The notes below the pieces were generated by a model. The model had not been told where the DNA came from. It was given only the letters and a program-made list of their open reading frames with translations, and did no database searches. Shown here in pieces: positions 9,524 through 60,222 of a stretch of DNA of 64,000 nucleotides; within the stretch, counting starts at the first letter, position 1; each line of letters begins with the position of its first letter. The stretch comes from a virus, in the IMG/VR virus record IMGVR_UViG_3300021964_009390, positions 124,001 through 188,000 of that record. One strand, 5' to 3'. The position numbers and the translations under genes were made by a program.

Positions 9524-9524
9524 G

Positions 9525-11305: not shown

Positions 11306-11311
11306 TATTTC

Positions 11312-11319: not shown

Positions 11320-11335
11320 CTAATAGTTAATTTAA

Positions 11336-12256
11336 TCAATCATAACCGATATTATTTCTATATGTAAACTTATCTAGGCTATATTTTAGCGGTTCGAACT
11401 CTGTACCGTGTTCATTATAACTAGTATAATACTCATTAATGATTTTATAGTTATCGGTTATACCGTTCATACATGGTTTGTAACAATTAATGTCAAATTT
11501 AAGTTGATCACGTACTGACTTATACATTATACCTCTCTGTTCTCCGGGGATGTGAGTGTATATATTTTCCGGATAAGAAGTTTTTTCCATACCACAATTA
11601 GATATTTTTACCAATTCACGGTCAACAATATTATTCAATATATAATTGTATATATAATTTGTAGGGTGGTTCACCGAGTAAAATAGTAGCTTATCCACCC
11701 AGTTGTCCCGGATATAATTTGATACATCAATAAAATTTGCATCCGGGTATGTTTCTTTTGCAACCTGTTCTTTATTACTAATTAACTGTATTGTAGTGCT
11801 GATATGGTTTGATAATTCAGCGTTGTCTATATAATCACTATTATCAAACACTTCGTCATAAAACATGTTTACCGGTTTTTTGGACAGATAATATTTTATT
11901 AAATTTAAGTAATGGTAATCGCATGGATTCGTCACTAGGCCACCTAGGTTATTTTTTACATACACTAAATCCGGGAAATATACACCACCAAAAATAGATG
12001 GTATCATTAGTAAAACTGAATCTTTTTTCCGATGTTTACATATATAATCTGTACCTAAATAATTTTTACCTCTGTAATCACTTTTTATTGGTTGAGTTAT
12101 TATTATGTCTGCATCTTTAATAGTGTTCAAAAAGCTTTTTTGAGATATATTAGTTGCATAACATAAAATATTTTCAACTTTGCATTGTGTAAACAACCCG
12201 GAGTGTATTAATTTACTAACTTGGCAATTACCGTATAATAAAACTTTCATGCTCAT
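11336..12256 (-). CDS. WcbI-like polysaccharide biosynthesis acetyltransferase
   Basis: A 306-residue protein with the WcbI-type start (KVLLYGNCQVSKL), then IIITQPIKSDYRGKNYLGTDYI near residues 50-71 and a LLMIPSIFGGVYFPDLVYV segment near 82-100. The family is tied to capsule formation and is proposed to be an acetyltransferase using CoA. It begins with MSM; the ATG overlaps the stop of the 871-residue glycosyltransferase by 4 nt. The likely job is decorating a glycan built by the neighbouring transferases. Confidence 0.6.
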   Translation of the reverse strand: MSMKVLLYGNCQVSKLIHSGLFTQCKVENILCYATNISQKSFLNTIKDADIIITQPIKSDYRGKNYLGTDYICKHRKKDSVLLMIPSIFGGVYFPDLVYVKNNLGGLVTNPCDYHYLNLIKYYLSKKPVNMFYDEVFDNSDYIDNAELSNHISTTIQLISNKEQVAKETYPDANFIDVSNYIRDNWVDKLLFYSVNHPTNYIYNYILNNIVDRELVKISNCGMEKTSYPENIYTHIPGEQRGIMYKSVRDQLKFDINCYKPCMNGITDNYKIINEYYTSYNEHGTEFEPLKYSLDKFTYRNNIGYD

Positions 12257-14868
12257 CTGTTAAATTTATATTGCTTTATTAGAGCTTGTTTCTTACCATT
12301 GTCTGTTTTAGTTCTACCATACGAGTTATCAACTATTCTATAGTATGATAACGGACCTTCCCAAGACTTCGCGATGTTTAAATTTGAATCTATACATCTT
12401 AACCACAAAGCCCAGTCTGCAATACTACCATATTTTTTCTCATCGAAGTAACCGACAATTTCATGTATCTCTCGGCGCCACACCGGGGCAGAGTGGCATG
12501 GGTTACACGTATTATTACTATTGCAGTTCCAGAAGTTTTCAATATGCAAAGGTTGACCTACACTATACTCATTAAACCACATATCGTTGTGTTTTTTCAC
12601 GTGTTCATTATATTTTTTTACGTAACTTTTACCAGCTACAACTGGAGCAAAAGCTATATCTGTTGCCGGTGAATTGGACAGGAAATCTATCATATACCGG
12701 GAAAAATCCGGGTCATGACGATCATCTAGATTGGCATTTGTTATATATAATCCGGTAGATTTTTTAATTCCTAATTCCCAACACTTATAAATACCTGGGT
12801 CTTCCTTTTTAGTGATGTTTATTATCCTTATATTATGGTGATTTTTTTCCAGGTCTGCGATCTTTTTTTGTGTTTTTTTACTATGTGAATCTTTTACACT
12901 CACAATTACCCATTCTAGCTCATCTGGATATTTTGAATTTTGGTTTTTAAAATCCTCACACAGATCATCAAAGTATTCATCTGCTTTATACAACGATGTC
13001 ACCCATGACAACATCACTGATTCAGATTTTTTTTCTAGTTTTTTTAAATCATATAATATTTTCTGGTTGAATGTCTGTTGAGATACGTGGGACTTATCTA
13101 AATTATGTAAATATTTATTAGTCCTTTCAACAAGACTAGTGAACTGATCGCTAGTCAGACTTTCAATATCTTTTACATTATCATAAAACATAGGGTAATC
13201 AATACCTATATACTGTTCGAAGCTCGGATGTCTATTCAACAGTACAGGTGTCTCGCATCTAATGCACTCTAACAACAGATTGCTAGCCGTAACATCGAAT
13301 GCATCCATATACAATATATTCTTTTCAAAAATTTTTATATACTCATCATTTGCTAGGTGTTTGATAAGCTCAACATTATACATGGATGATTTGATGATAT
13401 CTGTAAGGTTGCTGAAGTCTTTTTTGACTAGTAATCGTTTATGTATATTACCCGGTATTTTAATATCGTTAAAAGATTTTAAATTTCGCATCCACCAACC
13501 TATATGATATATTTGTTTATTTTTAGACTGTTTATACTGCTTGATGTCGAATCTAGTTTTTATGTCATCAGTTATAGGGTGATTAACTGAGACGATTTTA
13601 TTTTTAAGGAAAGGAAATTTTTTCAATATATCCGGTCGTGTCAAGTACTTTTTATGATTTCTAGAGACAGTATATATGTACTCAGCTTTTTGCATAAGCC
13701 GGAAATCACAATTTTTATAATATGTATCGTTACTGATTAACTCTGGTAGTGCATGCTGGACTAACAAACCATTAAAATTCCCCGGGGTTGTTTTAACCTG
13801 GTTGCTTAGTTCATCTATACTTTTGGGGGTTGAGCGCTTATATATAGTTTCCCATTGCTCGAAAGGTGGGTTGTGTACAAATGTTATTAATTTTATATCA
13901 TTATCTATAATAGAGTCCATCACCCATCTATTAGTTACCATGTCTCTACCCCATGTAGTAAGTTCTTCTAACCAAGGGTTAAAATATAGTGTATTTTTGT
14001 ACGTAAGTTTATCATATCCTCGATCGATTAACTCCTCATGCAAATGATGCATAGTTCCTTTCCAGCCAAAATAATGGGTACCATACCAAGAGCCTCCATG
14101 TGGTGATAGAATGATATTTTCACCAGTTATTTCCCAATTTTTTTGTATACTTTTTCCTGTATTTATACACACTCTACCCTCATGACGACCATATTTTATA
14201 TAATGTGCATACGCTAGCTGTGGTGTATCAAACCCAGCTGCTGTTACATCTGGATTGTTATACATGTAATATTCTGCATCAAAGCTATTTTTTAGTGTAT
14301 ATTTAATTAAATTCTCACCGGATTCATGTGCATGTACAAGTAGTCGATCATCCGATATATGATGAGATATACCGTTTAATAACCGATATGTTTTACTATC
14401 AAACTCCGGGTTAAGGTTGTAAAAATGCTCTCTAGACATTAATCGGTTTTCCTTCTCACCATACTTATAGTAATGTTGTGCAGCTTTACTAGGTGTATTG
14501 AAACCACCAGATACTATGTCTGGATAAGCGCGTATATAAAAATCTCGATCCAAATTGCCACCCACTAAATCTAAAGCGGATTTTTCTTCATGTGATTTAA
14601 TTAGAAATTGGTCACAAATGATACATTTTTTATACTCACAGTTCAGTAGTGTGTTGATTTGTTGTATTATCGTGTCGTCAATATTACCTGTAACTAGATT
14701 GGTACTATTGTATATTTTATAACTCGGAACTCCGGTAGATGATCTATCGTCATCGCTTGTAAATATTATACAGTCATTGTTGTTCTTTACATACTCAGTA
14801 ACATTAGTTGGAAGATTCTCTATAGAACTGACTCTAAATATTGTTACACCGTTACCATTCTTGGACAT
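12253..14868 (-). CDS. Large two-domain glycosyltransferase with YPDI/EGR repeats
   Basis: The biggest protein of the island (871 residues). Residues 1-95 are unassigned. Two copies of a short module lie at about 107-142 (FYIRAYPDI then YKYGEKENR) and 197-232 (YYMYNNPDV then IKYGRHEGR). Residues about 250-630 look like a GT-B domain (SPHGGSWYG, FVHNPPFEQW, ECIRCETPVLLNRHP). Residues about 638-871 form a GT2-like GT-A domain (VMLSWVTSLYKADEYF, EDPGIYKCWELGI, ITNANLDDRHDPDF). Two transferases in one chain suggest alternating addition of two sugars. The ATG follows an AATAAATA late box by 6 nt. Confidence 0.75.
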   Translation of the reverse strand: MSKNGNGVTIFRVSSIENLPTNVTEYVKNNNDCIIFTSDDDRSSTGVPSYKIYNSTNLVTGNIDDTIIQQINTLLNCEYKKCIICDQFLIKSHEEKSALDLVGGNLDRDFYIRAYPDIVSGGFNTPSKAAQHYYKYGEKENRLMSREHFYNLNPEFDSKTYRLLNGISHHISDDRLLVHAHESGENLIKYTLKNSFDAEYYMYNNPDVTAAGFDTPQLAYAHYIKYGRHEGRVCINTGKSIQKNWEITGENIILSPHGGSWYGTHYFGWKGTMHHLHEELIDRGYDKLTYKNTLYFNPWLEELTTWGRDMVTNRWVMDSIIDNDIKLITFVHNPPFEQWETIYKRSTPKSIDELSNQVKTTPGNFNGLLVQHALPELISNDTYYKNCDFRLMQKAEYIYTVSRNHKKYLTRPDILKKFPFLKNKIVSVNHPITDDIKTRFDIKQYKQSKNKQIYHIGWWMRNLKSFNDIKIPGNIHKRLLVKKDFSNLTDIIKSSMYNVELIKHLANDEYIKIFEKNILYMDAFDVTASNLLLECIRCETPVLLNRHPSFEQYIGIDYPMFYDNVKDIESLTSDQFTSLVERTNKYLHNLDKSHVSQQTFNQKILYDLKKLEKKSESVMLSWVTSLYKADEYFDDLCEDFKNQNSKYPDELEWVIVSVKDSHSKKTQKKIADLEKNHHNIRIINITKKEDPGIYKCWELGIKKSTGLYITNANLDDRHDPDFSRYMIDFLSNSPATDIAFAPVVAGKSYVKKYNEHVKKHNDMWFNEYSVGQPLHIENFWNCNSNNTCNPCHSAPVWRREIHEIVGYFDEKKYGSIADWALWLRCIDSNLNIAKSWEGPLSYYRIVDNSYGRTKTDNGKKQALIKQYKFNR

Positions 14869-23006: not shown

Positions 23007-23014
23007 TATTTATA
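23007..23014 (-). promoter_or_regulatory. Perfect T4 late promoter TATAAATA
   Basis: Exact TATAAATA on the minus strand, 5 nt before the ATG at 23001. It overlaps the queE stop codon region at 23010. Confidence 0.75.
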
Positions 23015-23813
23015 CTCCTGTTGTTTGATCCCACGCACTAACATGCAATCTAGTCAATGCCGTATAACCGTATTTTTTACCCATCTCCATACAAAACTGT
23101 GTACGTTCATGATAATCTTCACGTTTGTCTAACCCGGGCATCATCAGCACTCGCTTGGGTTGTATACCGAAAGGTTTGATAAAATCTCTCTCTATTTCTT
23201 CTAAACATGATTCTTCACTTATTACAAACTTGAACCAGTGATTATAGTGCTCCATGATTCTTTCCAATGCGCGTGGTACTATCCGGCGCTTGCTATCCAT
23301 ACCACTGTTAGCTAGTTTTACAGAACAGTTTATTTGATCTAGATGTTCAAATAAATCATCTTCTATATACATGGTACCGTTGGTTTCTATCTCGTTAAAC
23401 AAATATCTACCCTGTGGGCTGTCCTTGATGTCCTGTTCATCATCACCCCATGTAGAATGTTTGTCATAAAACCATTTCAAGAAACCTACGATGGCGCGTT
23501 GGTTTTTGGGTATAGTTGGTTCACCACCAGTCCATATCAAGTTGACTCGACCTTCTTTGATCCAGTCATACACGTTTTGTTCTTTCCACCTATCTACTAG
23601 ATAACTGAAAGGTTTTTCTAGGCCTTTCTTCCACACATACTCTGTGTCACACCACCATGTTGCTTGGCCTGACTTCATCAGGCTACCGTCGACACCTCCG
23701 CACATCAAGTTACATGCTTTGAGTCGTATGAAGTACGCTGGTACACCACTGGTTTGACCTTCACCTTGAACGCTGTAAAAATCTTCTGAAATGTTTAATG
23801 TATCTATTTCCAT
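23010..23813 (-). CDS. queE: 7-carboxy-7-deazaguanine synthase (QueE)
   Basis: A radical SAM enzyme converting CPH4 to 7-carboxy-7-deazaguanine. From the ATG at 23813 the protein has 267 residues. The N-terminus has SEDFYSVQGEGQTSG and PAYFIRLKACNLMCGG, giving C34 and C38, and after an insertion WWCDTEYVW with C55. The canonical CxxxCxWCDT arrangement is therefore split by about 16 residues, as I recall for some phage QueE. The WTGGEPTIP motif near 90-98 is the SAM-binding GGE. It lies 4 bases after queD and shares its early promoter. Confidence 0.9.
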   Translation of the reverse strand: MEIDTLNISEDFYSVQGEGQTSGVPAYFIRLKACNLMCGGVDGSLMKSGQATWWCDTEYVWKKGLEKPFSYLVDRWKEQNVYDWIKEGRVNLIWTGGEPTIPKNQRAIVGFLKWFYDKHSTWGDDEQDIKDSPQGRYLFNEIETNGTMYIEDDLFEHLDQINCSVKLANSGMDSKRRIVPRALERIMEHYNHWFKFVISEESCLEEIERDFIKPFGIQPKRVLMMPGLDKREDYHERTQFCMEMGKKYGYTALTRLHVSAWDQTTGV

Positions 23814-23817
23814 ATAT

Positions 23818-24525
23818 TTAAAATAACCACGTGTTTTTAGTTTTACCACTATATTTTGGATCCACCCATTTACCCACTGTCTTGTTTTGAGCATCTTTCA
23901 ATTTAGGTGGAGGTGTTTTGAATGGTGGCTTGGTAATTTTTTTAGCATTATCATCCTGTTGTTTGATTTCTTGCGCGACCGATTCTTCAGAAGTCTCAAC
24001 AGACTCGCGAGTCTCTTCATGATGTTCTTGTTCTAGTGTCGATAGGTAACTGTCACTAGAGATATATGTATCTGATGTCTTTTCGCTCCCCGGAAATTCT
24101 TGATATACAGCTGAGTTGTCCTGGTGTTCAAACACCTCTACTTTGACACATCTGCACCTGAGCTTGGTTATCACACCTACATAATTGTCTGCTGCTGAAT
24201 GGCACCATTCAGCGAATTTCTCTATACCCACACCATCCATCACGCGCAAGTCACACACACCGGCTTGGTCTAGTTGCTTGAACACGCTTAATTTAGGATC
24301 ATCACTAGATATACAAGTGGTATGATCAAATTGTTGTTTGAGCAGTGCTTTAAATTCTTTAAAATTACCGAAGTCTACAACCCAGTTGTTTTCGTCTAAA
24401 GTTTCTGCCGCAAACCAGAATTTAGCTTTGAGTTGGTAGCCATGTATGAATCTACAATGGCTAGTGGCTCTTGGTTGTCTAAACGCGCAGCTACCTAGTT
24501 CAATAGTTTTTGTACTGTAATGCAT
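23818..24525 (-). CDS. queD: 6-carboxytetrahydropterin synthase (QueD), with a long tail
   Basis: Converts dihydroneopterin triphosphate to 6-carboxy-tetrahydropterin in the preQ0 pathway. The core (about residues 1-140) has SHCRFIHGYQL at 22-32, VVDFGNFKEF near 49-58 and FDHTT near 66-70. The usual zinc pair HGH reads HGY here, so one ligand is changed. Residues about 145-235 form an acidic, Ser/Glu-rich then Lys/Pro-rich tail that ordinary QueD lacks. It heads the queD-queE unit under a sigma-70 promoter at 24532-24560. Confidence 0.82.
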   Translation of the reverse strand: MHYSTKTIELGSCAFRQPRATSHCRFIHGYQLKAKFWFAAETLDENNWVVDFGNFKEFKALLKQQFDHTTCISSDDPKLSVFKQLDQAGVCDLRVMDGVGIEKFAEWCHSAADNYVGVITKLRCRCVKVEVFEHQDNSAVYQEFPGSEKTSDTYISSDSYLSTLEQEHHEETRESVETSEESVAQEIKQQDDNAKKITKPPFKTPPPKLKDAQNKTVGKWVDPKYSGKTKNTWLF

Positions 24526-28276: not shown

Positions 28277-28921
28277 ATGGATTACGTAAAATTACAATAC
28301 GCTAACGGTAATCATCCTAGAACACCAGAAGAGCGAGAGAAAATTATAGATAATGCAGCAAAAGCATATGAAGCATACATGGATGCATTATGTTTTGATT
28401 GGAGATCAGACCCTAACAGCGCTGACACACCCAGACGTGTGGCAAAAGCTTTTGTAAATGATCTTGCGGCTGGTTGTTATACTGAACCCCCTAACATCAC
28501 TACATTTGATAATGTAGATCAATACGATGGTTTAGTATTTCAGGGTAATATAAAGACTAACTCGTTTTGTTCACATCATCATTTACCTTTTATAGGACAG
28601 ACGCATGTAGCTTACATACCAGGTAAAGATGGTAAGGTGATCGGGTTGAGTAAATTGAACAGAATAGTCGAGTGGTTCTCTCGTAGACCACAAGTTCAAG
28701 AAAATTTAACCATGCAGGTACATAAGTATATCAATCAAGTATGCGAAGGTAATAACGGTGTTGCGGTGTTAGTTGAAGCTAACCATACATGTGCTGGACT
28801 GAGAGGTATCAAGCATGATAGTACTATGAAAACAGCTCGTATGAGTGGGGCATTTTTAGATAAAAAGGATATTAATACACGACAAGAATTTTACGACTTT
28901 GTAAGAGATTTAAAACGATGA
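28277..28921 (+). CDS. folE: GTP cyclohydrolase I (FolE)
   Basis: Converts GTP to 7,8-dihydroneopterin triphosphate, the entry step to preQ0 and to folate. This 214-residue protein has NSFCSHHHLPFIGQTHVAYIP near 95-115 (zinc ligands C98 and H101), a KVIGLSKLNRIVEWFSRRPQ segment near 120-139 and ANHTCAGLRGIKH near 168-180 with the third ligand C172. Length and motifs fit bacterial FolE. With queD, queE and queC in the window it most likely feeds 7-deazaguanine synthesis. It has its own early promoter within the late minus-strand cluster. Confidence 0.94.
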   Translation: MDYVKLQYANGNHPRTPEEREKIIDNAAKAYEAYMDALCFDWRSDPNSADTPRRVAKAFVNDLAAGCYTEPPNITTFDNVDQYDGLVFQGNIKTNSFCSHHHLPFIGQTHVAYIPGKDGKVIGLSKLNRIVEWFSRRPQVQENLTMQVHKYINQVCEGNNGVAVLVEANHTCAGLRGIKHDSTMKTARMSGAFLDKKDINTRQEFYDFVRDLKR

Positions 28922-44656: not shown

Positions 44657-45713
44657 AAAATCAGACATTAGCGCTGATGCTCTCAAAGCATTAGATAGTA
44701 TAGATAAAATGAACCCGTTAGCCGGGTTTTTAACTGAGAGTACGTTGAGTAATGTCAATGACTGGCACGATACCGGCTGTCTTGTGCTAAACAGCATAAT
44801 TAGTGGTAGTTTGTACAAAGGTGTACCAAAAGGTAGAGTTACTGGTTTCGCCGGTCCGAGTATGGCAGGTAAGACATACATAATCAATAAGATATTAGCT
44901 GGAGCTCAACGCGAAGGTATGATTCCAGTGATTTTTGACACAGAAGCTGCAGTAGATGAAAATAGTGTACGTGGAGTTGGTTTAGACCCGGAAAAAGTTA
45001 AATATGTCCCAGTGCAAACTGTAGAAGAGACCCGTAACCAAATTGTAAAATTTTTAGATCATATCATTGAAAATAAACAACAAGGTAAATTTATCATAAG
45101 TATTGATAGTTTAGGTAACCTCGCTAGTCAAAAAGAGATGGAAGACATCACCAAGGACAAAACCGCGGTAGATATGGGCACACGAGCCAAAGGGCTCAAG
45201 AGCATGATGAGGACTCTCACATTCAAAGCAGCAGAAGCTGACACTACCATATTGTTCAGTAATCATACTTATGATGATCCGGCTGCTATGTTTCCATCTC
45301 TAGTAAAAAACCAAGCCGGTGGTAAAGGACCAGTGTATCTCGCCAGTGTGTTGGTGCAATTGGCCAAGAAAGATGAGCGTCATGACAAAAATAACGAGTC
45401 TGATCAAATGATCGCAGAGGCTAAAACATATAGTGGTACCACGTTACGTGCTCTGACTGTCAAAAACCGGTTTGTACCACCGTTTCTTGAGGCGGAAATG
45501 TATTTAAACTTTAAAACTGGGTTAGATAAATACTCCGGACTGTTAAACATTGCAGTAAATCATGGTGCAATTGTACAAACCGGTAGTACATACCAATTAC
45601 CTGATGGTACCAAGCTAGGTTATTACAAGCAGTGGAGAGATAATGACGAAATATGGGACAAGGTTCTTCCCGTCATTGAAGAAAAACTAAAAGAAGATTA
45701 TCAGTACAATTAG
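44649..45713 (+). CDS. uvsX: UvsX RecA-like recombinase
   Basis: The strand-exchange recombinase of T4-like phages, 354 residues. It has a CLVLNSIISGSLYKGVPKGRV segment near 40-60, Walker A GPSMAGKTYIINK near 66-78, IPVIFDTEAAVD near 92-103 and Walker B FIISIDSLGNL near 150-160. The DMGTRAKGLKSMMRTL segment lies near 176-191. A LPDGTKLGYYKQW segment near 320-332 closes the family pattern. It works with UvsY and gp32. A hairpin with a T-run lies inside the gene at 44712-44731. Confidence 0.93.
   Translation: MGKKSDISADALKALDSIDKMNPLAGFLTESTLSNVNDWHDTGCLVLNSIISGSLYKGVPKGRVTGFAGPSMAGKTYIINKILAGAQREGMIPVIFDTEAAVDENSVRGVGLDPEKVKYVPVQTVEETRNQIVKFLDHIIENKQQGKFIISIDSLGNLASQKEMEDITKDKTAVDMGTRAKGLKSMMRTLTFKAAEADTTILFSNHTYDDPAAMFPSLVKNQAGGKGPVYLASVLVQLAKKDERHDKNNESDQMIAEAKTYSGTTLRALTVKNRFVPPFLEAEMYLNFKTGLDKYSGLLNIAVNHGAIVQTGSTYQLPDGTKLGYYKQWRDNDEIWDKVLPVIEEKLKEDYQYN
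44712..44731 (+). other. Terminator-like hairpin inside the uvsX coding region
   Basis: AACCCG (44712-44717) and CGGGTT (44723-44728) pair around a TTAGC loop, and five T follow from 44727. It sits at codons about 22-28 of uvsX. The form is that of a weak intrinsic terminator, but coding constraint on the Asn-Pro-Leu-Ala-Gly-Phe residues could produce it by chance. Confidence 0.3.
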
Positions 45714-47101
45714 TTGATAGGTCTGTTAGCCCATCCGGGTCTCCATAGTATATCTTCTTTGATAGTAGGAGCACCGGCCATTTTCCATGACGGTGTAGCG
45801 TCTGGTATCCCATCCCCATTAACATCCCAGTTCATTTGAGGCTGTGCTGGTTGAGCAGGTGCTGTAGCACCGGGTTGAGCAGGTTGTGTAGCAGCATCTC
45901 CGCCACCACCAGCTCCACTCATCATTGAAGATACTTTGCTGATACCATCACCTAGAGCACCTAAACCAACACCTACAGCCCCACCGGTATGTCCTCGAGA
46001 TAAAACATCCTTGTCTGTAGCCGTTTGTTTCAAAGCTTCCATTGGCTCTAGACCTTGAGCTCTAAGCTCTTTATATTTTTGAAAACCAGCTAAACCACCA
46101 GCAGCAGCAAAACCTGCCCCGTACCGGGCAATAATCATAGGTAAAGCAGCTCCCATCGCCAAGCTAGCTGCCCCTAATATACCGACAGCAGCTGTTTTAG
46201 TTAAGTTGGGATTTTCCTTAACCCATCCCATAATTTTCTTCATCATGCCTTGCTTTTCACCACCGGCCGCGGCTGGTTGCTCTTCTTTGTTACCAAAAAT
46301 TCTATCATGCCCCATCCGGTATTTTTCACTACTATCACCAGCTTGCTGCGAACCGTCTATTTTTTGGTTCTCATTATCATCATACTGTTGAAGCTCTGCA
46401 TCAGTAGGATTATTCGGGTCTAATTGCCCCGCAGGCATCGGTTTGTTTGCCACATCCGGTGCTTGCGTCTGTTGTGCTTGTGCCTGTTGATCATTATAAC
46501 CTTGTTTGAAACCACCTGCAGCATCTTTCGCGCCAGTGGCAATAGCTTGTCCAGCTTTTTTAGCTCCTTTACCAATTGCTGTACCAACTTTTCCGAGACC
46601 TTTGGCAATGTTACCGAGTAACCCTTCATTATGTAAATATAAAATATGCTCGCGAATCATCTCCTTGTATTCATCTACTCCCTCGTTGACTGTTTGCGGT
46701 TCCGGTGAATTAGCTATTTGATTCTCTACCTGACCAGCCCCCTCTTCATCTAGCGCTTGATCTAACGCTTGGGGCCCTTCTTGAGCTGCTGTTGTGACTT
46801 TGACCAAAGTATCTGGATCATTTGCCTTCAACCATTCTATAGCCTTCTGTATAACTGGTTGTAACATCTTATCGTTAACTGTTTGAGCGATGTTTTGCAC
46901 TCCGGTTTTAGCTGCTCCTACAGCTTTACCGGCCAGATTACCCAAGGTTCCCATGAGACCCTCTTCTATTAAAATTTGTTCCACCAGTTGTGCTGTCAAT
47001 TCAGTATCATACTGGTAACCCTCAGCAAAAATGCGTCTGACACGCTGTGTCCTGGCACGTCTCTCAAAACTTTCGAAAATTAAATGATTGTCTCTGTTCA
47101 T
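45710..47101 (-). CDS. Large late protein with amphipathic repeats and hydrophobic segment
   Basis: A 463-residue protein. MNRDNHLIFESFERRARTQ at the start carries an I-F-E site, and another leader-like stretch follows (RRIFAEGYQ). Two similar amphipathic segments follow an EGLxG start: EGLMGTLGNLAGKAVGAAK near 47-65 and EGLLGNIAKGLGKVGTAIG near 158-176. Residues about 305-345 are hydrophobic (AAVGILGAASLAMGAALP). The middle is Gln/Ala-rich and the end Pro/Ala-rich with a DVNGDGIPD motif. It is probably packaged, perhaps acting on membranes during DNA entry; that is inference. It lies alone on the minus strand between early genes. Confidence 0.6.
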   Translation of the reverse strand: MNRDNHLIFESFERRARTQRVRRIFAEGYQYDTELTAQLVEQILIEEGLMGTLGNLAGKAVGAAKTGVQNIAQTVNDKMLQPVIQKAIEWLKANDPDTLVKVTTAAQEGPQALDQALDEEGAGQVENQIANSPEPQTVNEGVDEYKEMIREHILYLHNEGLLGNIAKGLGKVGTAIGKGAKKAGQAIATGAKDAAGGFKQGYNDQQAQAQQTQAPDVANKPMPAGQLDPNNPTDAELQQYDDNENQKIDGSQQAGDSSEKYRMGHDRIFGNKEEQPAAAGGEKQGMMKKIMGWVKENPNLTKTAAVGILGAASLAMGAALPMIIARYGAGFAAAGGLAGFQKYKELRAQGLEPMEALKQTATDKDVLSRGHTGGAVGVGLGALGDGISKVSSMMSGAGGGGDAATQPAQPGATAPAQPAQPQMNWDVNGDGIPDATPSWKMAGAPTIKEDILWRPGWANRPIN

Positions 47102-47138: not shown

Positions 47139-47849
47139 ATGAAAAAATGCATAATCCCGGTCAGCGGTGGTATAGACTCATCAACCATACTGTATTATAC
47201 ACACAAATCACGCAAGGATTTTGATGAAATACATACAGTCACTTTTGATTATGGTCAGAGGCATAGCAAAGAGATTGAACATGCCGAATTGATAACCAAA
47301 AATGTCAGCACCAGTCACAAAGTTTTAGATGTAACATTTTTAAAAAACATTATAACGTCTAGCTCATTGACCAATGATAGTATAGATGTAGCAAAAACTG
47401 CAGATGTACTAGGTGACCCACAAACCGTCAATTATGTACCTAACAGAAACATGATCTTACTATCCATTTGTACTGGTTATGCGGAGAGTATCGGAGCCAG
47501 CGTTGTGTACCATGGCGCCGCACAAGTTGATAGTGAGGCTGGTTATTGGGATGGTACTCAAGAGTTTATTAGTTGCATGAACCTAGTGAACAGTTTGAAC
47601 AGACGAGATCGGGTGACTATTGAAGCACCTCTGTTACAAATGTCAAAACAACAAATAATTAAACTAGGTGTAGATAGTGATTTGGATTTCAGTAAAACGT
47701 GGACCTGTTATGAAGGTGGTACTAAAGCATGTGGTAGATGCACCGCATGCAGTAGCAGAATCAAAGGATTCGTAGATAATAAATTAATTGACCCAGTGGA
47801 GTATGAAATAGATATACCATGGGACAAATACAACTGCGAGAGACTGTAA
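47139..47849 (+). CDS. queC: 7-cyano-7-deazaguanine synthase (QueC)
   Basis: An ATP-dependent enzyme converting 7-carboxy-7-deazaguanine to preQ0. This PP-loop protein of 236 residues has VSGGIDSSTI at 8-17, TFDYGQRHSKEIEHA near 35-49, VNYVPNRNMILLSI near 97-110 and GAAQVDSEAGYWDG near 126-139. Zinc cysteines are C190, C198, C201 and C204 (CGRCTAC). These are all standard for QueC. The gene is followed after one base by a glutamine amidotransferase, an arrangement that in some phages is a single Gat-QueC fusion. Confidence 0.94.
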   Translation: MKKCIIPVSGGIDSSTILYYTHKSRKDFDEIHTVTFDYGQRHSKEIEHAELITKNVSTSHKVLDVTFLKNIITSSSLTNDSIDVAKTADVLGDPQTVNYVPNRNMILLSICTGYAESIGASVVYHGAAQVDSEAGYWDGTQEFISCMNLVNSLNRRDRVTIEAPLLQMSKQQIIKLGVDSDLDFSKTWTCYEGGTKACGRCTACSSRIKGFVDNKLIDPVEYEIDIPWDKYNCERL

Positions 47850-47850
47850 T

Positions 47851-48522
47851 ATGTGTGGTGTATACGGTTCTACTTGTTACAATAGATTTAAAGATCTATA
47901 CAAATTAAACACAACAAGGGGCAATTTCGCAAACGGTCATGTTTTTGTGAGTGATTCTCAAGATGGTCGATCTCTACATATATCAAAATCTCCCGGGACT
48001 AAAAAATATACTGATGTAATAGATGAGAATATTAAAATACACTTAGGTCATACACAATCCCCGACCGGTAGTGTAAGAGACTATCATCCATCTACAACAC
48101 ACCCATTCGAGAGCAGAAATTGGATCGTTGGTCATAATGGTGTCATTAATAATTTTGAAAAACTAAAACAACAGTATGCACCACATAGCAAATGCAATGT
48201 TGACACGAGTATAATACCCTATTTACTAGAGATGTATATAGCTACCCGACATACTGAGCAAGAAATAACAAATATCGTGAAAAGAGTGTTAGACATGATA
48301 AATGGTACGTACGGGTTGTTTATTTTTAATAAAAAATACAACCTCTTGTATGTAGCTAGATCTGGAAGCACTCTGTTTTATGACCCTAAGGATGGTAGTT
48401 TCAGCTCTACACAGCATGGTAACATGGTGGATCTACCAGAACATACACTGTTTAAAGTCAACGGTAACATATATGAACGAGTAGCTAGTCTATCTAATAA
48501 CTCATCATTTTTAATATTATAA
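47851..48522 (+). CDS. Class II glutamine amidotransferase paired with QueC
   Basis: A 223-residue Ntn-type amidotransferase domain. MCGVYGS gives the N-terminal Cys2 nucleophile after Met removal, IHLGHTQSPTGS near 63-74 is the glutamine-binding region, and WIVGHNGVINNFEKL near 91-105 is the conserved oxyanion segment. It has no synthase or sugar-isomerase domain, so it must pass ammonia to a partner. Adjacent to queC, it could convert a nitrile or carboxyl of the deazaguanine to an amidine or amide, as Gat-QueC does. Partner assignment is inference. Confidence 0.82.
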   Translation: MCGVYGSTCYNRFKDLYKLNTTRGNFANGHVFVSDSQDGRSLHISKSPGTKKYTDVIDENIKIHLGHTQSPTGSVRDYHPSTTHPFESRNWIVGHNGVINNFEKLKQQYAPHSKCNVDTSIIPYLLEMYIATRHTEQEITNIVKRVLDMINGTYGLFIFNKKYNLLYVARSGSTLFYDPKDGSFSSTQHGNMVDLPEHTLFKVNGNIYERVASLSNNSSFLIL

Positions 48523-49226
48523 TGAAAAATAAAAAAATTGAACTTAAACCTATACTCATTGTGAGCTGTACTCAAAATGAATCATGGAAAGATACAAGAT
48601 TAGGATCATGTAAAGCCAGCTTGGAAAACCAAGCTAAATTCAAGTTTGTAACAAACAATAAACAAGGACTACCTAAATGTTATAATAAATTTTTAACAAA
48701 AAAAATAGCAGAAAAACATGATATAATTGTATTTTGTCATGATGATTTATATATAGATGATTTAAAATTGCGAGGAAAATTATACAAATCGCTATACGCC
48801 GACAAATATGATATTGTCGGCCTCGCCGGTGCTAGTACATGCAAAATAGAACATGGTAAACCTACCCTGTGGCATTTGATGAGCGAGCGAGATACATGGA
48901 GCGGTACTGTTTTCCACCCGCGTGGTGTTGATACAAATCAAGTGATGTCTACAACGTTCGGACCAACTCCATCTAGATGTCTCGTGTTAGATGGTGTGTT
49001 TCTTGCAGTGAACATACACCGTGCCCGGGAGAAAAAATGGAAATTTAATGATACATTTGACTTTCATCATTATGACATAGCTAGCTGTATTGATGCAAAT
49101 ACCAAGCAATTGAAACTCGGTACATGTATGATACACGCTATTCACGACTCTCCCGGCTTACACTCTATAGAAGACCCAGACTGGCTGTCTAGCCAGGACA
49201 AATTTTTAAAGTTGTATGGTGAGTAA
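48522..49226 (+). CDS. Glycosyltransferase (StrF/Glyco_tranf_2_5-like)
   Basis: A 234-residue GT-A-type protein. PILIVSCTQNESWKDTRLGS is near 10-29, NKQGLPKCYNKFL near 46-58 and a DIIVFCHDDLYID metal-site segment near 68-80. DIVGLAGAST lies near 98-107 and GVFLAVNIHRAR near 159-170. The VFCHDD motif is typical of the 2_5 subgroup. It shares one base with the amidotransferase stop and lies in an early operon with queC, so its role could be DNA-base or glycan glycosylation; neither can be decided here. Confidence 0.72.
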   Translation: MKNKKIELKPILIVSCTQNESWKDTRLGSCKASLENQAKFKFVTNNKQGLPKCYNKFLTKKIAEKHDIIVFCHDDLYIDDLKLRGKLYKSLYADKYDIVGLAGASTCKIEHGKPTLWHLMSERDTWSGTVFHPRGVDTNQVMSTTFGPTPSRCLVLDGVFLAVNIHRAREKKWKFNDTFDFHHYDIASCIDANTKQLKLGTCMIHAIHDSPGLHSIEDPDWLSSQDKFLKLYGE

Positions 49227-49240
49227 CAATACCTTATAAT
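49212..49240 (+). promoter_or_regulatory. Sigma-70-like early promoter before gp41
   Basis: TTGTAT (49212-49217), 17-nt spacer, TATAAT (49235-49240), then 6 nt to the ATG at 49247. The -35 lies inside the end of the glycosyltransferase gene. Confidence 0.65.
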
Positions 49241-49246
49241 ACTCAC

Positions 49247-50569
49247 ATGATAGGTATAGACGAGCAGTTATTTGAGCACGTGCTCATATACAACTGTATG
49301 ACAGATGAAAGGTATCTAGCTAGTGTGATAGATTATCTCAAACCGGAGCATATCAAAGACTCTAACATTAAGCAGACATACAATTTGTTAGTAGACTTTT
49401 ACAATGATCACAGTGAGTTACCAAGCTCTACAGAAATTAAAACACGTTGTGATAATGACGATTTAAAAGCCGCAGTCCGGATCACTGTGAGTTACATCAA
49501 GAATATCGATAAAAACTATAATAAAGATGAATTGTATAAAAACACAGAACAGTTCATTAAGGAACGTGCAGTGTATAGTACCTTGATGGAGGTTGTAGAT
49601 CAAGGCTCTTCCGGGAGTTTAGAGCCGGCAGATCTATTAACTAAATTTGAATCTGCATGTAACATTAATTTGAATGTTGATGTAGGTGTAAATTATTTTG
49701 AAGATATCGACCGGCATGTAGACGATATAAATAGAGAAGAGAAGTACGTGAGTACCGGTTGGCAATGGCTTGATAAAAAACTCAATGGGGGTTTTGTAGA
49801 AACTGGCCGGGCATTGTATGTTTTCGCTGGAGAGACTAATGTAGGTAAAAGTATATTGCTAGGTAATATAGCTACTAACTTATGTAAGCAGGGTAAAAAT
49901 GTGTTGTTAGTTTCATTAGAAATGTCAGAGATGCTATACTCTAAGAGGTTGAGCTCAAACATAGCACAGGTACCTATAAATGAGACTCATTTAAGTGTAG
50001 AATATTTGAAAGAATCTATTAAAAATTTTAAGAACACTCACAAAGATTGTTCTTTGATCGTCAAAGAGTTTCCTCCTAGTACCGTGACACCTCAACAACT
50101 AACAGCATATATTAATAAGTTATGCCAAACAGTGATGCGCCCAGACGCAATAGTACTAGATTATATCAACCTGTTGAAAGGTCCACCTGGTACAAACAGT
50201 TATGAACAAATTAAAAAGGTAACTGAGAATGTAAGAGCCATGTCATATAAATTTGAATGCCCGGTCATCACCGCAACTCAGTTAAACCGTTCTGGTTACA
50301 ACGAGACTGACCCGGGATTGGATACAGTCGGAGAAAGTTATGGTATGGGAGCAACAGCAGATTGTGTGGTGAGTATATGGCAGCGAGATGAAGATGCTGA
50401 ATTGAATGTAATCAATTTAGGTATGATGAAAAACCGGTTCGGTCCTAACTTCGGTACATGTGCGATGGATATAGACTATGGTACTTTGACAGTCACAGAA
50501 CAAGAAAACGTGAACGAAACAGAACAGATGAATGAAACTATCGGTACCCTATCTATATTGAGCAATTAA
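49247..50569 (+). CDS. 41: gp41 replicative helicase (DnaB-like)
   Basis: A hexameric 5'-3' helicase of the replisome, 440 residues. It has an N-terminal helical domain to about 160, then STGWQWLDKKLNGGF near 167-181, Walker A FAGETNVGKSILLGN near 193-207 and VSLEMSEMLYSKRL near 222-235. Walker B AIVLDYINLLKGP lies near 301-313 and ITATQLNRSGYNE near 341-353. Layout and motifs match T4 gp41 and other DnaB-family helicases. The partner primase gp61 is at 57842-58891. Confidence 0.92.
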   Translation: MIGIDEQLFEHVLIYNCMTDERYLASVIDYLKPEHIKDSNIKQTYNLLVDFYNDHSELPSSTEIKTRCDNDDLKAAVRITVSYIKNIDKNYNKDELYKNTEQFIKERAVYSTLMEVVDQGSSGSLEPADLLTKFESACNINLNVDVGVNYFEDIDRHVDDINREEKYVSTGWQWLDKKLNGGFVETGRALYVFAGETNVGKSILLGNIATNLCKQGKNVLLVSLEMSEMLYSKRLSSNIAQVPINETHLSVEYLKESIKNFKNTHKDCSLIVKEFPPSTVTPQQLTAYINKLCQTVMRPDAIVLDYINLLKGPPGTNSYEQIKKVTENVRAMSYKFECPVITATQLNRSGYNETDPGLDTVGESYGMGATADCVVSIWQRDEDAELNVINLGMMKNRFGPNFGTCAMDIDYGTLTVTEQENVNETEQMNETIGTLSILSN

Positions 50570-50654
50570 TTTAAAACTAACAACCATTAAACAGACATCT
50601 GAAACAAAAGCAAAAGATTTAATAAATACACTAAAGAATGATTACAAATAACAA
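50570..50654. other. Spacer between gp41 and the fucosyltransferase-like gene
   Basis: This 85-base stretch is the longest intergenic gap. It is A-rich and holds no TATAAT or TATAAATA box and no hairpin with a T-run. A reading frame of about 24 codons without an ATG or GTG ends at 50651; it is not called as a gene. Confidence 0.4.
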
Positions 50655-51311
50655 ATGAACCTGTATAGATTAGCAGATTTTATTAGATATAACATGCAAG
50701 AGGGTCTAGGTTTTAAAGGTAGTATTGCAGAAGAATACTTAAAACGTAATACAAAATACAAAAATGAAGGTGATGTAAACTTTGAACTGTTGAGAAGTAT
50801 TGTGAATAGTAGAAAAAAACCTCCGGAACAAGACACTGTATCAATACATGCTAGATTAGGCGATATACTAAGTCCTCGGAATGCCAATTATATCTCAATG
50901 AACAATCTACCATCGTTCCCAGACATTATATTAAAACATAATTTACATAAAAAATATAAAAACTGTTCTATATATTATGGTAATCATAAAATAGGAACAC
51001 CAGGTGTAGCAAACGTTGATAAATCAAAGACCATTTTAAATAACATTGTGACTAATCTAAGCAATATGGGTCTAGATACAAAAATTATATCAAATTCTGC
51101 TGATGAAGATTTTATATCTTTATCAACATGTCTCTGCTACATTTCCGGTATCAGAGGTTTCGGATGGTTGTCTGCTTCAATAAACCCAAACACAGTTTAT
51201 TGGGATAATCACAACATACCAAATTTTTCGTGGGAAAGATACCCTGAACAACAAATAAAAAAATCTCTAATGAAGGGATATAATTACCACCTATCAATTA
51301 AAACAACATAG
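50655..51311 (+). CDS. GT11-like (fucosyltransferase-type) transferase candidate
   Basis: A 218-residue protein. VSIHARLGDIL near residues 62-72 corresponds to the HxRRGD-type GDP-fucose site of family 11. DEDFISLSTCLCYISGIRGFGWLSA near 155-179 parallels the D-L-S-C-x-I-x-xSTFSWWxA segment, and NTVYWDNHN near 185-193 closes the pattern. It is shorter than typical GT11 (about 290), and the second Arg of HxRRGD is Leu. GDP-fucose could be supplied by Gmd/Fcl. The call is an inference from motif order. Confidence 0.5.
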   Translation: MNLYRLADFIRYNMQEGLGFKGSIAEEYLKRNTKYKNEGDVNFELLRSIVNSRKKPPEQDTVSIHARLGDILSPRNANYISMNNLPSFPDIILKHNLHKKYKNCSIYYGNHKIGTPGVANVDKSKTILNNIVTNLSNMGLDTKIISNSADEDFISLSTCLCYISGIRGFGWLSASINPNTVYWDNHNIPNFSWERYPEQQIKKSLMKGYNYHLSIKTT

Positions 51312-52201
51312 TGAAGAACATTGTATTTACAGATGCAGATTTAGACGGTAGCATGAGCTACATGTTACTAAACTGGTGCGCGAACAATAAGCTACCGTAC
51401 AAAGTAACCACTGTTACTAAATTTCATGATGATTATACTGCATGGTCTAGAAAAAATGACCCAACTACATATAACAAGATTATAATTCTGGACCTAGACG
51501 TGAGTCAGCACTCTTTGGTTTTAGTAGATCAACCAAACGTGACCATTGTAGATCATCACCTGACCCATGTTGCAAACAAAGACAAATATAAACAGGCCCG
51601 AACATACATCCAAGAGTACCCTAGCTGCGCTAAATTGATATACAAATTGTACAAGCACACTCTAGATGATAAAATGAGCAATCATATGAAAAAATTGTTG
51701 TTACTTGTTGACGACTATGACAGCTGGACACATCAATACCCGCATAGTAAAAAATTAAATTATGTATTCTGGAATTACCAAGGAGATCGGTTAGAGAAAT
51801 TCATGAAAGATTTTGGAACCGGGTTCAAGGGATTTACTCCCGCACATGGAAAGACCATAGAGTTTTACGAAAAAAAATTGCAAAAAGTGACCAGTAACCT
51901 GGTATATCACCATGCGGATGTGAGTATACAAAAACAAAAATGTAAATGTATATGCACCTTCGCTAACAGTCTTATAAGTGATATTGGTAATCATTTAATT
52001 GATGATAAAGGCGCTGACATAGGATTTGTTGTAAATCCTGATTCAAACAGAGTAAGTATACGTAAGAATAAAAATTGCAGTGTCGATGTAGGTAAATTGG
52101 CTAAACTATTAATAGATGGAGGTGGTCATGACGCAGCAGCAGGGGGTGTATGTACAGAGACTTTTTTACAATTCAGCAAAAAGTTTCAACCAGTAGAATA
52201 A
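51311..52201 (+). CDS. DHH/DHHA1-type phosphoesterase
   Basis: A 296-residue DHH-family hydrolase, the group that includes RecJ and nano-RNase NrnA. Motifs are FTDADLDGSMSYML near 6-19, IIILDLDVS near 57-65, TIVDHHLTHV near 79-88 and LLLVDDYDSW near 118-127. The C-terminal substrate-binding GGGHDAAAGG lies near 272-281. The substrate may be single-stranded DNA, short RNA or pAp. The start is GTG at 51311, overlapping the stop of the upstream gene (TAGTG), and it ends in a TAATG overlap. Confidence 0.85.
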   Translation: MKNIVFTDADLDGSMSYMLLNWCANNKLPYKVTTVTKFHDDYTAWSRKNDPTTYNKIIILDLDVSQHSLVLVDQPNVTIVDHHLTHVANKDKYKQARTYIQEYPSCAKLIYKLYKHTLDDKMSNHMKKLLLLVDDYDSWTHQYPHSKKLNYVFWNYQGDRLEKFMKDFGTGFKGFTPAHGKTIEFYEKKLQKVTSNLVYHHADVSIQKQKCKCICTFANSLISDIGNHLIDDKGADIGFVVNPDSNRVSIRKNKNCSVDVGKLAKLLIDGGGHDAAAGGVCTETFLQFSKKFQPVE

Positions 52202-57841: not shown

Positions 57842-58891
57842 ATGTTGAGTTTGTCTGATCAGTATGTTGTAGAGAAGTTTTGCCAATATGGTGGCTATCC
57901 ATCATTCAACAAACGATCAAACGCATGGATGGCTGGGTGCCCTATGTGTAGGGAAGGGAAGAGCTGGGGTAAGAAGCGGAGGTTGTACTACAAAATTGAC
58001 AAAAACTATTTATTTTGTTTCAATTGCGGGTGGAAAGGAGGGACAATCGAGTTTATAAAACATGTGACTGGTATGTCATTCAATGAGATAATGAATGAAA
58101 ACAACAACTATGATACGTCTGATGTTGTAGAAGTAGATTCAAAGAAACCATCTATCACCACCCCTAGCGAGACACTACCAGCTGATTCAATAAATTTATT
58201 CGACGATTCACAAACCAGCTGGTGGCTATCACAGCGGTCTGAAGATAGTAAAGTCATCCACGATTGTATAGATTATATAAAGACGCGAAAACTAAATGTG
58301 GCCATAAACAAACCAATGTCAATATGGGTCAGCTTGAGCGATTATACACATAAAAACAGACTGACATTGCCGTTCTATTCAACAGATGGAAAAATTATAT
58401 TCTATCAAACCAGAGCCATGTATAAAGATGAATCCAAGCCCAAGTATTTGAGTAAATCCGGAAGCGAAAAGAGTATTTTTAATATAAACAATATCGTGTC
58501 AGATGTTGACAACATATATTTATTTGAAGGACCAATAGATAGCTGTTTTGTCAAAAATGGTGTAGCAGTTGCCGGTGTTACAAATGGCCCGAGCCAAGAT
58601 TTGAACAGCTTGCAGCAGCAACAATTGAACGATTATAGATTGTATGGTAAAACTTGGGTGCTAGATTCACAATGGTTGGATGACACCAGTTTGCATAAGA
58701 CAAAAATGTTAGCAGATCAAGGTGAGCATGTGTTCATATGGCCTGAATCTATTGGTAGATCGTATAAGGATTTAAATGATTTGTGTACGAACAAAAATTT
58801 ACCAGGTATAGGTCACAAATTTGTAGACAGACACACCTACACGGGTATGAAAGCCAAGCTGATGCTCAAGACGATCAGCTCTAGTCGTTAG
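57842..58891 (+). CDS. 61: gp61 DNA primase
   Basis: A primase of 349 residues making RNA primers with gp41. The N-terminal zinc finger has GCPMCREG near 36-43 and FCFNCGWKGG near 57-66. The TOPRIM core has IYLFEGPIDSCFVKNGVAVAGVTNG near 223-247 and TWVLDSQWLDD near 275-285. LPFYSTDGKIIFYQTR near 175-190 is a conserved strand pair. The layout is that of T4 gp61. The stop overlaps the convergent late gene by 11 bp. Confidence 0.88.
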   Translation: MLSLSDQYVVEKFCQYGGYPSFNKRSNAWMAGCPMCREGKSWGKKRRLYYKIDKNYLFCFNCGWKGGTIEFIKHVTGMSFNEIMNENNNYDTSDVVEVDSKKPSITTPSETLPADSINLFDDSQTSWWLSQRSEDSKVIHDCIDYIKTRKLNVAINKPMSIWVSLSDYTHKNRLTLPFYSTDGKIIFYQTRAMYKDESKPKYLSKSGSEKSIFNINNIVSDVDNIYLFEGPIDSCFVKNGVAVAGVTNGPSQDLNSLQQQQLNDYRLYGKTWVLDSQWLDDTSLHKTKMLADQGEHVFIWPESIGRSYKDLNDLCTNKNLPGIGHKFVDRHTYTGMKAKLMLKTISSSR

Positions 58892-59303
58892 AAATTAAAT
58901 AGCTTTTGAGACTCTCTGATAAGCTTCTCAAATCTTGAGCGATTCTACCAATTTTCTTAGTTTCACTCCGGGCAATATCGTCAAATATGGTGTCACATGG
59001 AGCATTGTTTATTTGAGAGTTGAGAGAACTCTCACCTAATCCGTTCAAATAATCTATAAATTCTTCAATCTTAACAACCCATCCTTCGATTTGACCAGCG
59101 TATTCAGCGTTTTGTTGTTTTTGCAACTCCTCCGCAGGGTTACCTCCAGGACTTGCCATCGGCGCGCCTTCAGGTGCCGGCTCTACATCTAACATCGATG
59201 GGTCCGTACCAGGGTCCATTTGATTTTGTGCTGCATCTGCATCAGTCAATTCTTCCTGTTCTGTAACTAATGTTGTAAAAAATCGGTCAGTAAATGTTTT
59301 CAT
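58881..59303 (-). CDS. Late protein with capsid-targeting-like leader
   Basis: A 140-residue acidic protein. MKTFTDRFFTTLVTEQEEL resembles T4 internal-protein leaders (MKTYQEF...). Residues 20-75 are Asp/Pro/Gly-rich, and 80-140 form two helices (EGWVVKIEEFIDYLNGLG, IGRIAQDLRSLSESLKS). It looks like a prohead core or internal protein. An exact TATAAATA lies 9 nt before the ATG. Not matched to a named family. Confidence 0.6.
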   Translation of the reverse strand: MKTFTDRFFTTLVTEQEELTDADAAQNQMDPGTDPSMLDVEPAPEGAPMASPGGNPAEELQKQQNAEYAGQIEGWVVKIEEFIDYLNGLGESSLNSQINNAPCDTIFDDIARSETKKIGRIAQDLRSLSESLKSYLISND

Positions 59304-59312
59304 ATTGATAAT

Positions 59313-59320
59313 TATTTATA
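59313..59320 (-). promoter_or_regulatory. Perfect T4 late promoter TATAAATA (leftward)
   Basis: Exact TATAAATA on the minus strand, 9 nt before the ATG at 59303. It lies 6 bp from the rightward late box at 59327-59334. Confidence 0.7.
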
Positions 59321-59326
59321 CTCCGA

Positions 59327-59334
59327 TATAAATA
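59327..59334 (+). promoter_or_regulatory. Perfect T4 late promoter TATAAATA (rightward)
   Basis: Exact TATAAATA on the plus strand, 7 nt before the ATG at 59342. Together with 59313-59320 it forms a divergent late promoter pair. Confidence 0.7.
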
Positions 59335-59341
59335 TAAACAG

Positions 59342-59737
59342 ATGAAACATTCAAAAAATAACGATCAACAAGAAAAACAAACACTTTTCGAAGATTTAGT
59401 ACAACAAGCAAACCAATATCAGGCCGGTGCTCATCCGATGGGGCGAGTACCAGGTAGTAAAAAATTGACCGTTCTTGATTTGTTGAGAGTGAACGACGAA
59501 GATGATGACAAAGCACCGCAAATATTACCATTCCAAATGAACACATTTGTAGAGGCTCTTGGTGATGTGTATGTACAACTAGTGGAAGTACAGAAAATGG
59601 TGGCTAGTGCATATAAATCGAGTGTTGTTAAGGACACAAACAAAATAAAAAATACACTCGTCACAATTAATAAAAACATACAGAAACAAAAACAAATGGT
59701 CAAAGAATGTGGTAAATTAATAGATAAAATAAATTAA
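59342..59737 (+). CDS. Late hypothetical protein, 131 residues
   Basis: A 131-residue helical protein. The start is polar (MKHSKNNDQQEKQTLFEDL), the middle has GRVPGSKKLTVLDLLRVNDED near 39-59, and residues 75-130 are two helices with basic residues. It has its own late promoter and opens a set of five small plus-strand genes. Not recognised. Confidence 0.55.
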   Translation: MKHSKNNDQQEKQTLFEDLVQQANQYQAGAHPMGRVPGSKKLTVLDLLRVNDEDDDKAPQILPFQMNTFVEALGDVYVQLVEVQKMVASAYKSSVVKDTNKIKNTLVTINKNIQKQKQMVKECGKLIDKIN

Positions 59738-59772
59738 GTTGCCACATTCGAGTATATATTTAAATATATTAT

Positions 59773-60222
59773 ATGCTTGATATATTAAAATCTTTGATGA
59801 TAGTGTGTATTGTGTCATCTGCAATTGCATCTGTGTGCAATATGGTGTACGGTATATCACCGTACGGTGTGTTTGTCATAGCTACAATAATACAATTTGC
59901 TTCTAGCTGGTTCATGTCTACATACTTTACATACAAGGATAAACTGGCGAACACTCAGAGACAAACCGCATTGATTTCTCAAATTGAGTCTGAAGCTACA
60001 GAAGCTCCTTGCGCTTACTGTGGTACAGTCAACTTAATACCCATCGCGCCAGACGGGGACAATGATTTCAAATGCATCGGATGCGGGGAGACTAACGGTG
60101 TTTATGTAAATGTAACCGTGGCTCAAAAGTCAGTACCTCTGGATTCCCCCAGTTATTCTGTATCCAATTTCGACTCACATTTGGAAACCGCCAAAAGATC
60201 GATACAAAACAGTGACTCATGA
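59773..60222 (+). CDS. Membrane protein with zinc-ribbon-like domain
   Basis: A 149-residue protein. Two hydrophobic helices lie at about 5-25 and 31-52, then a charged linker. A zinc-ribbon-like part holds APCAYCGTVN near 78-87 and FKCIGCGETN near 98-107, two CxxC pairs. The end is Ser-rich. The cytoplasmic zinc domain anchored in the membrane suggests a host-envelope or virion-assembly role, but no family is recognised. It overlaps the next gene by 4 nt (ATGA). Confidence 0.6.
   Translation: MLDILKSLMIVCIVSSAIASVCNMVYGISPYGVFVIATIIQFASSWFMSTYFTYKDKLANTQRQTALISQIESEATEAPCAYCGTVNLIPIAPDGDNDFKCIGCGETNGVYVNVTVAQKSVPLDSPSYSVSNFDSHLETAKRSIQNSDS

Follow-up and report, generated by a model that had tools for sequence, protein, structure and literature searches.

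A queC gene followed by a separate gene for a class II glutamine amidotransferase (Gat) raises the question of whether the two genes are a split form of the fused Gat-QueC enzyme, and which modified base they would help to make. Such a pair was found in the window, a stretch of 64,000 nucleotides that corresponds to positions 124001-188000 of a 222,461-base IMG/VR virus record (G000). The virus is T4-like, with its own DNA polymerase approximately 31% identical to cyanophage polymerases. On balance, we consider it probable that queC and the stand-alone gat work together as a unit in a viral pathway of DNA modification that ends in a preQ1-type base for guanine. The likeliest role of Gat is that of a predicted nitrogen-supplying partner of QueC, a putative glutaminase. 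The features under discussion are listed in Table 1.

Table 1. Genes of the window and of the rest of the virus record that are considered in the text (w, window numbering; r, record numbering)
Feature	Position	Strand	Basis
DUF366 protein	w 4633-5229	-	PF04017, 75 bits
queE, 7-carboxy-7-deazaguanine synthase (radical SAM)	w 23010-23894	-	phrog_2076, 145 bits
queD, 6-carboxytetrahydropterin synthase with C-terminal extension	w 23818-24525	-	PF01242, 59.5 bits; phrog_2389
folE, GTP cyclohydrolase I	w 28277-28921	+	PF01227, 157.6 bits; phrog_2197
463-aa gene just 5' of queC	w 45710-47101	-	
queC, 7-cyano-7-deazaguanine synthase	w 47139-47849	+	236 aa; TIGR00364, PF06508, motif alignment
gat, stand-alone class II (Ntn) glutamine-amidotransferase-like protein	w 47851-48522	+	223 aa; PF13522/PF13537, phrog_12378, phrog_13807, model, alignment
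Glycosyltransferase-like gene, conserved, directly 3' of gat	w 48522-49226	+	PF13712 in 15/17 homologues, window copy itself without match
DHH phosphoesterase-like gene	w 51311-52201	+	phrog_4771
g011, DpdA-type gene (immuto/Firehammervirus type)	r 8810-9730		44.4% identity to immuto gp206
Formyltransferase	r 9727-10272		PF00551, above cut-off
Small gene without family	r 10253-10537		
dATP/dGTP-diphosphohydrolase-like gene	r 10597-11064		
P-loop kinase	r 11080-11637		AAA_28
QueF, full two-domain	r 11621-12535		PF14819, 110 bits; PF14489, 80 bits; both above cut-off
Genes with PSCyt2+PSD1 (DUF1549/DUF1553) and DUF1501 domains	r 49004-51052 and 58513-59781		
Second QueF-like gene, one domain	r 50991-51497 (L004:10991-11497)		

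The original prediction described queC and, one base further on, a separate amidotransferase gene with Cys2 and a GHNG motif and with no synthase domain. The observation was confirmed: a single base lies between the TAA of queC and the ATG of gat, and the gat product starts with M-C-G, contains H-N-G and has no synthase domain. The QueC protein exceeded the cut-offs of TIGR00364 (NCBI equivalog; 185.5 against 150.3 bits) and PF06508 (200.8 against 22 bits), and alignment located in it SGGIDS, YGQRHSKE, VPNRN and C-x7-C-x2-C-x2-C. The published QueC motifs are SGGxDS, YxQxHxxE, VPxRN and a four-Cys zinc motif, with a spacing of x8 where x7 is found here (PMC13329287, used, like the other papers cited below, in the part available to us). 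Judging by these curated cut-offs and motifs, the window QueC is a member of the preQ0-synthase family. Its pocket motif reads YWDG compared with the usual YPDC; Tyr and Asp are kept, while Pro is replaced by Trp and Cys by Gly. The Tyr of this motif is essential in E. coli QueC (PMC13329287). All 38 Gat-paired QueCs that were aligned contain Y/F-W-D, with Trp in place of Pro at the pocket mouth. Y-P-D or F-P-D was found in the QueC of E. coli, Dp-1, BSTP12, CP220 and immuto and in three of four fused QueCs, the fourth (Xhv15) having F-G-D. The E. coli enzyme works without Gat. The QueC reaction needs nitrogen twice, from 7-carboxy-7-deazaguanine (CDG) to the amide and from the amide to the nitrile (PMC13329287), which makes QueC the obvious client of Gat.

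The assignment of Gat to the amidotransferases is based on GATase_6 and GATase_7, whose cut-offs were both passed narrowly (34.6 against 27 bits and 27.4 against 25 bits), and on its fold. An AlphaFold model built from 28 relatives had a pLDDT of 91 and was nearest to PurF (VIA Z 23.5) and GlmS (23.2), followed by EgtC (18.9). The protein keeps Cys2, H95-N96-G97 and Asp118 and has Gln69 at the position of the Arg for the glutamine carboxylate. The nucleophile Cys2, the N-G of the oxyanion hole and the Asp are kept in 38 of the 38 stand-alone Gats aligned. The Arg position is Gln in the same 38/38 by alignment and in 75/75 of a wider set by motif search; it is Arg in the four fused Gats and in the three E. 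coli enzymes used for comparison. In GlmS, PurF and AsnB this Arg, at the position that is Gln in the stand-alone Gats, presumably holds the glutamine carboxylate, and we take the pocket Asp, the residue kept in all 38 copies, to hold the amino group. Since Arg is replaced by Gln in every copy, glutaminase activity of the stand-alone Gat is doubtful; this change is the main argument against an ordinary enzyme of that kind. For want of this Arg we call the protein Ntn amidotransferase-like and do not count it among the established glutaminases.

These residues also bear on the possibility that Gat has the Ntn fold and is not a glutaminase, so that it would use another amide or acyl donor or would act on a 7-amido-7-deazaguanine-type intermediate or on QueC itself. 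We regard this as doubtful but worth keeping in view. The loss of Arg in every stand-alone copy next to an intact nucleophile, oxyanion N-G and Asp is in its favour, as is the Trp at the pocket mouth of every aligned Gat-paired QueC. However, the invariant pocket Asp speaks against it, Gln could in principle bind a carboxylate, and the searches indicate no alternative substrate. A bolder version, which we put forward as speculation and think rather unlikely, is that Gat founds a virus-only Ntn family without the usual use of free glutamine. Together with the Trp-pocket QueC, it would draw on an unusual amide donor to supply or edit the 7-substituent, and the pathway would lead to preQ1 or formyl-preQ1 in the DNA of a widespread marine T4-like clade. 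A scan of genome contigs with the Gat alignment confirmed none of 63 pattern stretches; thus, no cellular relative of Gat was found at that sensitivity. Separately, Gat matches in Listeria, Enterococcus and Staphylococcus came from unannotated assembled records; in our opinion, these may be bacterial GlmS.

The conservation of the pair was evaluated in viral contigs. A first scan with Gat alone gave no relatives, and QueC was the better handle: the scan with QueC gave 41 loci, of which 40 were close ones (L011-L050, some of them near-duplicates). A Gat homologue was located downstream of queC on the same strand in 40/40. The gap between the genes was -1 to 54 bases in 34 loci, 405-876 bases in five and 894 bases in the contig of L042. 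A wider scan with the QueC alignment confirmed 422 relatives, and 80 were kept, many of them on the same contigs. Gat follows queC in 75 of these 80; four of the other contigs end 145-926 bases past queC, and the fifth contains gat about 3.9 kb further on. The relatives share descent, and the 40/40 and 75/80 are not independent events. Because all 40 close relatives keep Gat downstream on the same strand, the adjacency is not due to chance. In a control of canonical queC loci in viral contigs, a Gat within 3 kb was found in 0/80 (74 with at least 1 kb past queC and six with less than 1 kb). The control loci were chosen by patterns including Y/F-P-D-C, so this motif is fixed by construction, and the finding from them is limited to the absence of Gat.

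The same kind of gene is found in cultured phages. ORF392 of the phage nt-1 (YP_008125324, annotated as hypothetical) overlaps the end of queC, and its product finds the window Gat as a distant match (E 1.8e-5). Gat of the nt-1 type was detected in 51 phage records (49 Vibrio and 2 Pseudomonas); gat lies directly after queC in nt-1, F86, pf16 and Vibrio phage 2.275, and a stand-alone Gat is also present in KVP40. Since the linkage, the nucleophile and the changed pocket mouth of QueC are all conserved, a working QueC-Gat pair is favoured, and the two proteins may be physically coupled. It counts against the pathway that QueC of E. coli works without Gat and that no Gat was seen next to queC in Dp-1, immuto and CP220. 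It is very unlikely that Gat serves an unrelated synthase, for example of viral sugar pathways, and adjoins queC by an accident of operon layout. This would agree with the glycosyltransferase-like nature of the next conserved gene and with the sugar-pathway genes in the genome; against it, the linkage with queC persists in several phage lineages whose surroundings differ, and no such Gat was found near canonical queC in the control.

The precursor genes were analyzed in the same window. FolE and QueD were identified by both Pfam and PHROGs and QueE by PHROGs, with no Pfam match for queE at 1e-3. With QueC, these genes make up the complete route to preQ0, as had been supposed. The original prediction had found no DNA transglycosylase, and had named the lack of any DpdA-like gene in the genome as a reason to abandon the reading. 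The first statement holds within the window, but a DpdA-type gene is present elsewhere in the record, and the reason to abandon the reading falls away. A 7-deazaguanine modification of the DNA is likely, as had been proposed. Absence of DpdA from the genome was ruled out by way of QueF: the proteins of other phages matched at record position 11621, and a gene upstream in the cluster proved to be an immuto-type DpdA. DpdA, the formyltransferase and the kinase lie upstream of QueF, and QueF is 160 kb from queC. The QueF sequence contains SNCRVTSQPDW, in which we take the Cys and the Asp to be the catalytic residues.

The product of g011 is 44.4% identical, over 94% of the query, to gp206 of the Flavobacterium phage immuto, which is annotated as a DNA guanine transglycosylase, and 44-45% identical to proteins in most of the Campylobacter records matched, including CP220. 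We assume that the subfamily name DpdA3 applies to this type, and DpdN to the formyltransferase. The model of a DpdA relative (L067) best matched the solved DNA preQ0 insertase DpdA 7ui4 (VIA Z 15.2, rmsd 4.2, 224 aligned residues), with TGTs behind it (Z about 14); the mean pLDDT of this model was 69. Sequence profiles gave no match between this DpdA and the DpdA of 9g and a weak one with DpdA2 (hhalign probability 22%), and PDB sequences showed no link with this DpdA type. Neither the record nor 41 related records contained a match to Pfam TGT, and the DpdA-type families phrog_10773 and phrog_887 had no match in the record.

DpdA and queC occur on the same record in 7 of the 20 records searched (G000 included; one of the seven is an edge fragment), and G063 contains DpdA, queC and gat. 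Around DpdA in five of these records, the formyltransferase was found in 5/5, the kinase in 5/5 and QueF in 4/5. A Pfam scan of 11 DpdA loci, which took in 47 of 98 nearby ORFs, gave 11 AAA_28, 11 QueF (two in L057) and 8 formyltransferase matches. The order of DpdA, formyltransferase, kinase and QueF is the same in immuto (44% identity for DpdA and 49% for QueF), where one small hypothetical gene follows DpdA; the immuto QueC, in contrast, is of the YPDC type. In the Campylobacter Firehammervirus CP220, gp056 is 44% identical to g011 and here, too, a P-loop kinase gene comes after it, whereas no formyltransferase or QueF is annotated beside it in the stretch read. CP220 DNA reportedly contains dADG at 100% of dG.

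Some related phages have had their DNA bases analyzed. Of the 51 phage records with nt-1-type Gat, 48 had a QueF among the matches listed, in which it was not found for nt-1 (two records) and CZ01. The phages with fused Gat-QueC, namely 9g, NP1, PSTCR4 and Xhv15, were absent from the QueF matches listed (best 60 of 64). In Vibrio phage 6E35.1a, queF, queC and gat stand in a row, and we read the phage 6E351A of PMC12028318 as this phage; in 6E351A DNA, 15% of dG was modified, and the mass of 295 fits dPreQ1 (PMC12028318). In the DNA of nt-1, dPreQ0 predominates, and dADG and dG+ occur in traces (PMC6884629). The co-occurrence of QueF with Gat in 48/51 records, dPreQ1 in 6E35.1a and dPreQ0 in the QueF-less nt-1 link the split pair with the preQ1 branch. 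Because DpdA clusters with the formyltransferase, the kinase and QueF, the marine virus probably makes not deoxyarchaeosine but dPreQ1, or its formylated form (formyl-dPreQ1) in genomes with the formyltransferase.

The same data make it extremely improbable that the pathway serves tRNA by providing the host with a queuosine precursor. Bacterial TGT normally takes preQ1 as its substrate (PMC6884629), and this would suit such a role; on the other hand, the DpdA-type gene is clustered with QueF and the formyltransferase, and dPreQ1 was reported in the DNA of a phage that has queF-queC-gat (PMC12028318).

The pair can now be compared with the fused Gat-QueC, the archaeosine synthase of 9g (Queuovirinae) and of archaea. 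Both consist of QueC and class II Gat domains, and in 9g, too, the enzyme belongs to a DNA modification with FolE, QueD, QueE and DpdA. However, Gat is the N-terminal half of the fused protein of 9g and its relatives, whereas here queC comes first and the genes are two; the window pair also differs in Gln for Arg in Gat, YWD for YPD in QueC and a QueF in the genome. In the QueC tree (47 rows), the 38 paired QueCs (99/96) were separate from the four fused ones (100/99), and the stand-alone Gats were likewise separate from the four fused Gats in the Gat tree (45 rows), both trees having several long branches and unsure deep joins. The alignment omitted 7 of the 40 close loci (repeated Gat sequences; L041, L048 and L050 were removed by hand). 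Judging from gene order, clades and residues, the pair is not a broken Gat-QueC.

The term split Gat-QueC thus stands in the sense of a QueC with a separate amidotransferase-like protein, but not in the sense of a deoxyarchaeosine enzyme. That the pair amidates preQ0 to archaeosine (G+), as the fused 9g enzyme does, appears unlikely to us. The two domains are the same as in the fused enzyme, fused Gat-QueC with DpdA gives dG+, and nt-1, which has a split pair, contains traces of it (PMC6884629). Nevertheless, the reversed order, the separate clades, the Arg to Gln change, the QueF and formyltransferase beside DpdA and the dPreQ1 of 6E35.1a all argue against this reading. In addition, nt-1 DNA has mostly dPreQ0, and its dG+ (44 per 10^6 nucleotides) is connected by the authors with an ArcS homologue (PMC6884629). 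As a minor product, dG+ or another amidated base is possible.

Under the favoured reading, FolE, QueD and QueE would convert GTP to CDG. Gat would take nitrogen from glutamine or another amide and hand NH3 to QueC, and QueC with Gat would convert CDG to preQ0. QueF would then reduce the pathway's intermediate preQ0 to preQ1, which the DpdA-type transglycosylase would insert into viral DNA in place of guanine. The formyltransferase would formylate the aminomethyl group, probably giving formyl-dPreQ1. The preQ1-type base may shield viral DNA from bacterial defences such as host restriction. The Arg to Gln change in Gat, the weak profile links of DpdA and the pLDDT of its model count against this pathway, as does the uncultured state of the virus.

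The closest counterparts of the pair are those of the KVP40-type Vibrio phages, F86, pf16 and Vibrio phage 2.275. They share Gat directly after a YWD-type QueC and Gln at the Arg position, and their clusters mostly include QueF; it is in this group that dPreQ1 was measured (6E35.1a; PMC12028318). They differ in that nt-1, F86 and pf16 have a DpdA2-type transglycosylase, compared with the immuto type in the marine virus, and that QueF lies near queC in the KVP40-type clusters. A more remote parallel is the archaeal GMP synthase with a separate GATase, which is a class I enzyme of PF00117. The two systems have in common a PP-loop synthase with an amidotransferase gene downstream (PMC13329287); the window Gat differs by its class II Ntn fold and altered substrate pocket.

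The available parts of PMC6884629, PMC12028318 and PMC8056088 contain no mention of a stand-alone Gat; the 2023 work on four new 7-deazaguanines lies outside this comparison. A literature search on Gat-QueC, DpdA, QueC and amidotransferase gave no paper on it among titles and the beginnings of abstracts. The stand-alone Gat would therefore be an added component of the phage 7-deazaguanine pathway. Since gat occurs in KVP40, its role can be tested in a cultured phage now, and the two paired changes, Gln for Arg in Gat and Trp for Pro in QueC, single out the exact residues. The pathway also leads to a specific prediction of the base in an uncultured clade of marine viruses that comprises hundreds of contigs.

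Several other observations were made. An AAA_28 P-loop kinase lies near this DpdA type in marine loci (L057-L069, L173-L177) and in immuto (gp203) and CP220 (gp057). This kinase might point to a step at the level of nucleotides and would fit base exchange on them before polymerisation. Some DpdA loci also hold a dNTP-diphosphohydrolase-like gene or a gene with an IMPDH/GMP-reductase domain. The second QueF-like gene reads FLGVKEQPDFA in the stretch where, we assume, QueF has its catalytic Cys, and a copy with 84% identity adjoins the DpdA cluster in L057. In the window, the PHROG search gave no match for the DUF366 protein, and no Rfam match was found in the window, L001 and L002. The 463-aa gene on the opposite strand is almost without family matches, and its homologues were detected in few relatives. 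The glycosyltransferase-like gene 3' of gat was detected in 74 of the 80 wider-set loci, and a PDB sequence search gave no match. The DHH phosphoesterase-like gene, located downstream of a gene at 49247-50569, was detected in 39/40 loci. Finally, the DUF1549/DUF1553 and DUF1501 domains encoded elsewhere in the record are, as we understand it, typical of planctomycetes and their relatives and give a hint to the host of this virus.
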